Shown: positions 23,048 to 33,290 of the stretch, piece after piece
How positions within the stretch are numbered: position 1 is the first letter of the stretch
Layout: each line of letters begins with the position of its first letter
From: Pirellulales bacterium
GTDB lineage: Bacteria; Planctomycetota; Planctomycetia; Pirellulales; JAICIG01
Reading direction: 5' to 3'
DNA length: 64,000 nt
Assembly: GCA_035533075.1 (NCBI GenBank)
Contig: DATLUO010000194.1
Span: 62,001-126,000, forward strand
Notes under the pieces: model-generated
What the model saw: the letters and a program-made list of their open reading frames with translations, nothing else
Told to the model about the DNA's origin: nothing
The model's database searches: none
Made by a program: the position numbers and the translations under genes

Positions 23048-25045
23048 TCATGGCAACATGTGCGGCCGCAGCAAGTTTCCGCCGCGCTGCGACAGAAGCT
23101 CATCGAGGATCGCCCGGTCCGTATAGCCTTTGTCGATCATCACGCCCAGCTCTTCGCGCGTGCGTTTCGCCAGACCGCATGGTTTGTCTTGACCGGCATC
23201 GCACGCGGCGAGCGTAAAGAAGTGCCCGGCACAACCGTCGTGCATGCCACAGGTGCAATAGACCGCCGACATCAGCCACTCCAGGCGGTCGGCTTTGTTT
23301 TGCGACTTGCCGAGACCAGGCGGCAAGTCTTCGTCACTCTCTGCCCGCGGGACAGTTGAACGCAGCTTCACGCGCTCGCCCACGGTCAAGGCTGCCATCG
23401 AAGAGGCATCGATCTCCAATAAAAGCTGGGTCCGCTCGCGCCACGGACGGACCTGTCGCACCACGGCCGGAGCATCGTCGGCTGCTCGGATCGTTACCTG
23501 TTCGCCGGCCTGAAGCGATCGCGCCCAGGGGAGCGCCTCGTGGTCGAGGATCAACTCGACTTGGCGGCGGTCCGGGTGCAAAAAGATCAGCGTGCCGGGC
23601 AGGCCCTCATCGGCCCAGCGTCGGCGGAGCAGCGCCTGTTGCGCAGCCCGTCGCTTCTTGAATGCCTCGTCGAACTCGGGCGGCGCATAAAACGCCTGCT
23701 GGCTTAACTCGTCGGCCAGGAGCGAGACCGCCACAAACCGCTTGGCGTCGTCCGTGTCGAACCAGACCCAGACCCGTTGGCCCTCGGCGAACTGGTCCAG
23801 CCGGCCCCACCAGCCATCGTGCCATATCTCTGCGTCGGGTCGGAGCGGCCATTGCTTGGGTTCTGTTTCGCCGTCGATGAGCAGCGTGACTCGCTCGCGC
23901 GGCACGTCCACGCCTTGCACCAGGGCAAAGCGCCGGGACGCGATGTCGAGATTGCCATGCGGTTTGGCCGTCTCGTGGCTTGAATCCTGGAACGGCTTGG
24001 AGTCGCCAGCGGCGACCTCTTGCCCGTAGATCGAGGTCTCCGGGTATTCGGCCGCCCAGGCGAACCATTTGACCTGGACGCTGTCCATTCCGATCAGCCG
24101 TGGCCCTCCTTCGACGGCCCGGCCGGTGATGTCCCAGTGCAAGCCAATGCGTTGATTGGTGAACGGCGCTTCCTTCAGCGTTTCATCGACGCGGAAGATC
24201 CAGCCGGCATCTCCTTGCAGGCCCGACGTGCCCCAGGGCTGATGATAGGCCGCCGCGGTCCGCGTCGGGCCATACCAGAACACGATGCGCGGCCGCCCGT
24301 CAGCCGTGTCATGAATCACGCCGGCCTTCTCCAAGGCGTCCAGCGGATAGGCCCTTGCCTGCTTGCCGTCCCAGACGCCCAGCACCATCGTGTCGGCCGG
24401 CAGACGCCCGTCCACAGGCGGCCGGCTCTTGCGTGAATCGCCATTCACCTGGCCGGGCAGGTCGACCGGTTGGTACTTGTCGTACATGAAGTAAGCGACG
24501 GACTGCGGATAGCGCTTTTGCCAGAAGCCCCAGTCGGTGACCAGCGTGGGTCTCGGTTCCAGCCGGTGCCCTTTCTTGGGACCGTCGAAGGCAACGCCGG
24601 TCAGGCAGGAATAAAGCGTGCCGTCCTGATCGCTCTTCATGACCATGACGCCTTTGCGCCAACCGTAGAAACGGAACGGACCGTCGTCGGGCGCGAAGCC
24701 CCGCGCGAAGCCCGCGTCGGGATCGTGGACGAAGATGCCCCAACTGTCGCTGAGCACTCGATAGGCGTTGAGGAAAAACCGGATCGGTATGACGCCGTCG
24801 TTGACGTAGTTGTCGGTTTGAACCTGCACCCAGCAGAGAACTCGGTCGTCATCGCGCAGAGCCGCCTGGCGGCGGTTTGCCTCCACGCGGCAATGAGAAC
24901 AGTTCGGATGGATCAGCGTCTCGAAAGCGTCCGGCCGGGCGATCACGTCGGGCGCCTGTGCCGGTTCGTCCGCCGGCGCCCATTCGCCAGTCGCGAGAAA
25001 GGTCCCTAGAAGCAAGGTCAGGACGAGCGAGTGGTTTAAGCGCAT
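23048..25045 (-). CDS. DUF3179 protein with CcmH-like C-terminal domain
   Basis: The 665-residue exported protein has a signal peptide (MRLNHSLVLTLLLGTFLATG). A heme-like or redox motif follows (HPNCSHCR), then the DUF3179 core with ADTMVLGVWDGKQARAYPLD, HDTADGRPRIVFWYGP and LTGVAF. The last roughly 75 residues differ: VYCTCGMHDGCAGHFFTLAA, then CGLAKRTREELGVMIDKGY and DRAILDELLSQRG. That resembles the CcmH/CycL cytochrome c maturation fold, where a Cys pair precedes a helix bundle (R-x-x-I-x-x-x-I-x-x-G). The C-terminal part may give thiol-redox activity. A CcmH-like domain on a DUF3179 protein is unusual as far as I know. Confidence 0.72.
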   Translation of the reverse strand: MRLNHSLVLTLLLGTFLATGEWAPADEPAQAPDVIARPDAFETLIHPNCSHCRVEANRRQAALRDDDRVLCWVQVQTDNYVNDGVIPIRFFLNAYRVLSDSWGIFVHDPDAGFARGFAPDDGPFRFYGWRKGVMVMKSDQDGTLYSCLTGVAFDGPKKGHRLEPRPTLVTDWGFWQKRYPQSVAYFMYDKYQPVDLPGQVNGDSRKSRPPVDGRLPADTMVLGVWDGKQARAYPLDALEKAGVIHDTADGRPRIVFWYGPTRTAAAYHQPWGTSGLQGDAGWIFRVDETLKEAPFTNQRIGLHWDITGRAVEGGPRLIGMDSVQVKWFAWAAEYPETSIYGQEVAAGDSKPFQDSSHETAKPHGNLDIASRRFALVQGVDVPRERVTLLIDGETEPKQWPLRPDAEIWHDGWWGRLDQFAEGQRVWVWFDTDDAKRFVAVSLLADELSQQAFYAPPEFDEAFKKRRAAQQALLRRRWADEGLPGTLIFLHPDRRQVELILDHEALPWARSLQAGEQVTIRAADDAPAVVRQVRPWRERTQLLLEIDASSMAALTVGERVKLRSTVPRAESDEDLPPGLGKSQNKADRLEWLMSAVYCTCGMHDGCAGHFFTLAACDAGQDKPCGLAKRTREELGVMIDKGYTDRAILDELLSQRGGNLLRPHMLP

Positions 25046-25200: not shown

Positions 25201-25764
25201 TTAGGGCGACTTGACGATCTTCGAGACGTCTTCCAAGAGCTTCGACACTTGGCCCTTGGTGAAATCGTCGGCGCCGTAGGCGCGGCTCGATTTCACCTCC
25301 ATGCCGCGATAGAAGAGAGCGGTCAGCCCGGCATCGGGATTCAGGCCGTAATTGGCCGGACCGTTTTCGAATTCGACGGGAACGACGACCGGGATGTTCT
25401 TGATCTTCCGATCTTCGACAAGCTTGGCTGCTTGAGCTTCCAGCTTGTCGCGGTCGTCGCCCAACAGATTGACGAAAGCCTTGAGCTTCTCGTCTTTGTG
25501 CTGTTCGATGATTTCATCCAGCTTCTTGACCAAACTGGCCAAGGCCGCGTCTGACTTTCTGGCGAAAATCATGACGACGGGGCTGCCGCCGTACTTTCAG
25601 CGATAGCACAACTCTCGGCCCACGGGCACGCCGTCGTTTTCGGCGCCCGCGCACTTGACAACCTGAAACGCTTCGACGAAATCGCCGACCTGCGGGCCGC
25701 TCTTGAGCGCACCCGCGGCCAGCGCCGCCGCAAGCAAGCCGACATAACTCACTGATTGCACCAT
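25201..25764 (-). CDS. Thioredoxin-like protein with C-Y-R-U motif, candidate selenoprotein (UGA at 25599-25597)
   Basis: Read through one in-frame UGA, the minus strand gives a 187-residue exported protein: MVQSVSYVGLLAAALAAGAL (signal peptide), PQVGDFVEAFQVVKCAG (peroxiredoxin/thioredoxin-like entry strand), GRELCYR-U-KYGGSPVVMIFAR, then a helical and strand region to KIVKSP. The UGA occupies the second cysteine of a CxxC motif, which makes CxxU at residues 53-56. The frame stays open and coding-like on both sides. The start has a GGAG site 6 bases upstream. Without readthrough the gene would be split into a 55-codon fragment and a 123-codon ORF that starts at an ATG inside the fold's strand. 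A redox role in the envelope is inferred. Confidence 0.72.
25574..25592 (-). promoter_or_regulatory. Possible SECIS-like stem-loop after the UGA
   Basis: On the minus strand, ACGGCGG (25592-25586) can pair with CCGTCGT (25580-25574) around a 5-base CAGCC loop, 11 bases after the UGA. The loop is closer to the UGA than the commonly cited 16-37 bases, and its G is third, so it is only a weak match. Confidence 0.3.
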
Positions 25765-32889: not shown

Positions 32890-33290
32890 TTTGCCACCAG
32901 CTTTAGCTGGTGGTTGGCGAACCGAGATAATACAACTCTTGAGCCGGCTTTAGCCGGCTTGCGGTGGAGCGGTGCAACGGCACGGCTAGAGGGATCGTCC
33001 TGCTTTCTGGAAAGAAAGATAAGGCCGACGGCCGCCGTAGCACCGAAGGTGCGTGAGTCCATAGCCCAGGGCGCAGCCCTGGGTAGCGTTACAACGTAGC
33101 CGAATAGCCCTGAAAGGGCGCGACTCCCGGTGGACCGCCTCACGGAGTAACGCCCTTTCAGGGCTACGAGCGTGATTCGCTTCGTAAACCCAGGGCTGCG
33201 CCCTGGGCTATGGAGTATGACCCCTTCGGGGTCGGAAATGCGACAAGCTCCCAAGAAAAAAGCGGGACAATCTCTAAAGCTGGTGGCAAA
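32890..33290. mobile_element. 401-bp MITE-like element with 17-bp inverted termini
   Basis: Perfect terminal inverted repeats, TTTGCCACCAGCTTTAG (32890-32906) and its reverse complement (33274-33290), bound a non-coding stretch. Inside are nested palindromes: CCAGCTTTAGCTGG, GCCGGCTTTAGCCGGC, and paired AGCCCAGGGCGCAGCCCTGGG-type boxes. A shortened relative is at 15548-15684. It has no transposase, so it would have to be mobilised in trans. No obvious target duplication was identified. Confidence 0.65.

Follow-up and report, generated by a model that had tools for sequence, protein, structure and literature searches.

The window analysed here, a 64-kb stretch of DNA from a Pirellulales bacterium, carries on its minus strand a gene for a predicted selenoprotein. 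Its frame (25764-25201), read from the sequence, runs MVQSVSYVGLL...GRELCYR-UGA-KYGGSPVVMIFARK...VKSP-TAA and contains a single internal stop, the TGA at codon 56, which is followed by 131 codons and a TAA. The features of the gene itself are:

25201..25764, minus strand: coding sequence of the predicted selenoprotein, 187 residues, Sec at codon 56, stop TAA
25771..25777, minus strand: Shine-Dalgarno sequence AAAGGAG, 6 nt 5' of the ATG at 25764, read directly
25606..25608, minus strand: TGC codon of Cys53, the partner of Sec56, an invariant column in the homologue alignment
25597..25599, minus strand: predicted Sec codon UGA, at the position held by the second C-x-x-C cysteine in homologues

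The UGA sits inside LCYR-U-KYGGSPVVMIF. The sequence-only reading of this locus, which proposed an exported, thioredoxin-like protein with CxxU in place of CxxC, had the frame and its coordinates right, and the UGA at 25599-25597 (minus strand) does take the place of the second Cys of C-Y-R-C. Scans of the 64-kb window found no other UGA with comparable support. The signal peptide that was proposed with it fits the family better than the protein: by eye, most homologues have a typical one, with a charged N-terminus, a hydrophobic core and AxA, whereas the N-terminus of the window protein, MVQSVSYVGLLAAALAAGALKSG, shows no Lys or Arg before residue 21 (again by eye, no predictor). The family is probably exported, and the window protein may be as well.

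Conservation and decoding of the UGA

A read-through homologue search was run over 147 genomes of the same order and gave homologues in 84 of them at E<=0.001, 76 with a match better than 1e-20 (hand count). In 13 of these genomes, the window's own included, TGA lies exactly at the second Cys of C-Y-R-C, and most of the other homologues read have TGC or TGT in its place. The codon is kept in the nearest relative, whose protein is 78% identical to that of the window, and in eleven further genomes. Over the whole set of homologues read, TGA is found at the codon 56 position in 34 (20 and 14 more, from about 30 genomes) and a Cys codon in 45, numbers that reflect unequal sampling of the two forms. 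It had been suggested that homologues with no residue aligned to the UGA would speak against a selenoprotein; we found either Cys or Sec aligned there.

The Sec machinery, whose absence would likewise have been an argument against this reading, is complete in the genome of the window. It encodes a tRNA-Sec with a UCA anticodon, SelA (E=2.8e-142) and SelD (E=3.5e-84), and SelB is also present. The SelD open frame (L056, G000:C31) is 745 residues long, more than SelD alone, and is possibly a fusion. In the 147-genome set, 23 of the homologue-bearing genomes have a high-scoring tRNA-Sec and 53 do not; by hand count, UGA forms occur in 13 of the former and 0 of the latter (Fisher 7.5e-9).

Translation continues past the UGA. 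Over the 129 codons 3' of it, comparison of the window gene with its nearest relative (L011/L012) gives a dS of 0.676 and a dN of 0.177 (dN/dS ~0.26), and therefore the frame is translated; purifying selection acts on it. With the machinery complete, the UGA conserved and coding continuing beyond it, the selenoprotein reading is well supported, and that the UGA is a real Sec codon can be taken as nearly certain, as far as sequence allows.

Two other ways to account for an in-frame UGA were considered and rejected on the stops of the open frames, the Sec machinery, conservation and selection. One is a genome-wide reassignment of UGA, with Trp, Gly or Cys as its new meaning, or readthrough of it by a near-cognate tRNA; if it were read as Cys, the protein would be intact and carry a CxxC too. 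However, UGA terminates 8 of the 17 long ORFs of the window, the genome holds a complete Sec system, and UGA forms are missing from the 53 homologue-bearing genomes without a high-scoring tRNA-Sec, which leaves this explanation extremely improbable. Just as improbable is a pseudogene or sequencing error in which a Cys codon was turned into a stop. A single base change from TGC to TGA would suffice for it, and an intact Cys paralogue (L041) exists in the same genome; yet the same codon is TGA in 34 homologues from about 30 genomes, purifying selection persists after it, and the two hairpins described below are specific to UGA genes. The recurrence of the UGA in independent genomes makes a sequencing error, in particular, very unlikely.

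Two hairpins downstream of the UGA

The SECIS of E. coli fdhF is one extended hairpin that starts beside the UGA, with a SelB-binding apical hairpin and an essential G-U. The window gene has in common with it an apical G-U loop, here proposed to bind SelB, 3' of the UGA, but here two separate hairpins are predicted:

25545..25580, minus strand: hairpin H1, 36 nt, proposed bypassed spacer, register varying by clade
25525..25543, minus strand: hairpin H2, CUUGGCCA-GUU-UGGUCAAG, proposed SelB-binding SECIS hairpin
25533..25535, minus strand: apical GUU loop in H2, at 61 nt from the UGA, its G and U invariant in the alignment

H2 is conserved both as sequence and as structure. In 20 UGA homologues codon choice in the stretch 56-75 nt downstream of the UGA's first base is remarkably constant (TTG-GCC-AGT), even though their proteins go down to 35% identity with that of the window. 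These codons make up H2, and its consensus across UGA homologues is CUUGGCCA-GUY-UGGUCAAG. In the 34 sequences, changes on both sides are seen in 4 of 8 pairs, and 95% of cells are paired; slid controls reach no more than 49%. Upon synonymous shuffling H2 has a mean z of -2.80 in the 20 UGA genes and -0.37 in the 45 Cys homologues. A pattern search for further H2-like elements within the window returned only this one.

H1 is conserved in another manner. It is a hairpin in every one of the 34 sequences, with a span of 34-40 nt, but RNAalifold on the whole set gave no H1 consensus, and its pairs are non-homologous between clades, with no column-wise covariation. Since the registers differ, synonymous shuffles were used for H1, and the Cys homologues served as control; its mean z is -2.74 in the 20 UGA genes and -0.12 in the 45 Cys homologues. 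The difference between UGA and Cys genes is significant for both hairpins (Mann-Whitney, 2e-9 for H2 and 1e-8 for H1). In the 14 further UGA genes the z values are -2.12 for H2 and -2.32 for H1; 13 of them came from a search with a model in which H2 is included, and so are biased towards it, while L087 came from a protein search, and the model has no H1 structure in it. The exceptions are L046, in which neither hairpin shows excess stability by this measure, and L164, in which H1 shows none. A register that varies by clade is what can be expected if the presence and size of H1 alone matter.

Which of the two hairpins binds SelB can be judged against the bSECIS model, which asks for a G among the first two bases of a loop of 3-9 nt, a stem of at least 4 bp and 16-37 nt from the UGA to the apical loop (PMC13188914). 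H2 satisfies the loop and stem rule in 34 of 34 genes, yet its loop lies 60-61 nt from the UGA, outside this range and with another conserved hairpin in between. When H1 is subtracted, the distance becomes 21-27 nt in all 34. Two other genes of the same genome have a GU-loop hairpin 26 nt after their UGA (hand counts): L133 (G000:C39), TlpA-like with UINC, and L135 (G000:C252), Prx-like with TUPVC. Both are further selenoprotein candidates of this genome. From the rule fit, the spacing without H1 and the 26-nt loops of these two genes we infer that SelB binds at H2 and that H1 acts as a spacer to be bypassed; the former is probable, and the latter is favoured with less assurance. Taken jointly, Sec insertion at codon 56 and H2 as its SECIS make a reading in which we place strong confidence.

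The main alternative is that H1 is the SECIS recognized by SelB and H2 an accessory element, for example a pause or anti-termination hairpin. H1 starts close to the UGA, and it agrees with the published bSECIS model in all tested respects in 10 of the 34 genes, the window's own among them. In the other 24 genes, however, H1 departs from the model, either by missing the G that it asks for or in some other feature, and the register of H1 is clade-dependent while H2 is nearly invariant and its GU loop invariant. We consider this alternative unlikely. The sequence-only reading had folded this very hairpin and described it as a weak SECIS match. The weak match has an explanation, as SelB probably does not bind at H1. 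The SECIS itself is not merely weak; it appears to consist of two hairpins, and the part that binds SelB likely lies further downstream than that reading looked. The range proposed there for folding, 25599-25540 (minus strand), cuts through H2, which ends at 25525.

Based on H2 as the SelB site, the following mechanism can be proposed. SelB carrying Sec-tRNA(Sec) would decode the UGA at codon 56, recruited by H2 through the G-U apical loop 61 nt 3' of it. H1, 36 nt here and 34-40 nt in homologues, would fold out between the UGA and H2 and thereby bring H2 to an effective distance of 21-27 nt, as is classical for a bacterial SECIS. In the product, Cys53 and Sec56 would form a redox centre for thiol-disulfide exchange or peroxide reduction. 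There is about an even chance that these genes represent a class of bacterial SECIS in which the SelB hairpin lies at some 61 nt from the UGA and the working distance is restored by bypassing a spacer hairpin, kept as a structure but free in sequence and register, and that the selenoprotein family using it, widespread in planctomycetes, is new. SECIS searches limited to 16-37 nt would miss such elements, and hence selenoprotein counts in planctomycetes, perhaps also outside them, may be too low. With its two hairpins, the arrangement also makes it possible to ask directly how SelB gauges distance on the ribosome.

The protein, its family and its neighbourhood

An AlphaFold model of the window protein was built from a 3-sequence alignment (pLDDT 66.7, pTM 0.66) and is poor around the CxxU. 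Fold comparison with this model gave 77 PDB matches at E<=0.001 with a TM of ~0.5, the best being TlpA/ResA and the core of deiodinase 2, with peroxiredoxins also among them. By this weak comparison the fold may be thioredoxin-like, as had been proposed; the position of the motif is not the usual one. In the model, strand 62-68 and helix 73-88 both come after CYRU (53-56). The CxxU stands ahead of the first core strand, whereas a thioredoxin CxxC usually lies at the N-terminal end of the helix that follows this strand, although the model is of low confidence there. The TlpA/ResA reductases and the deiodinase 2 core share only 12-14% identity with the window protein, and their motif follows the core strand. 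The likeliest active site is the Cys53-Sec56 redox pair, and a thiol-redox role is predicted with good confidence.

The family is large and apparently undescribed, with matches at E<=1e-15 in 316 of 398 genomes sampled from the class. Pfam and NCBIfam offer no model for it, a plasmid tblastn gave no match, and a single-protein scan gave two named relatives, one of them in a Pirellulales MAG. In the part of the 2026 prokaryotic selenoprotein table at hand (PMC13188914) there is no recognizably identical family, the likeness being judged by description only. With the CxxU/Trx-like selenoproteins of that table the window protein has in common the CxxU motif and perhaps a Trx-like fold, but many of those families are cited there with NCBIfam models, whereas none matches that of the window. 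Two Porphyra-associated planctomycetes, P1 and P2, are described as encoding all of the Sec machinery, with several selenoprotein candidates, fdhA and fmdB being named in the section of their report that was consulted (PMC4807772); the genome of the window shares the complete machinery and the several candidates with them.

Within the family, Sec and Cys forms are interleaved. A 65-row tree calls for at least four changes between them, two of which are forced by well-supported branches, and the genome of the window carries its Cys paralogue (L041) beside the Sec form. One Cys homologue, L163 (G083:C2), has a TGT codon, yet its H2 is complete, with all seven pairs. Its genome encodes tRNA-Sec and SelA, and the gene looks like a recent change from Sec to Cys. 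Such repeated exchange, together with paralogues in one genome, provides a natural setting in which to see what is gained by Sec. In a divergent homologue, L171 (G605:C11), the UGA is shifted by one codon in the 3' direction (RYYUAYHG) and there is no CxxU; TTGGCCAGTTTGGTCAA is kept downstream.

The neighbouring gene at 23048-25045 (minus strand) matches DUF3179 (E=5e-19), with an N-terminal CSHC and no internal UGA; in the nearest relative it is not adjacent to the homologue. DUF3179 is listed among selenoprotein families in the part of the table available (PMC13188914). Elsewhere in the window, at 33039-33083 (minus strand), there is an Acido-Lenti-1 RNA (RF01687) with 44.1 bits, above the gathering score.
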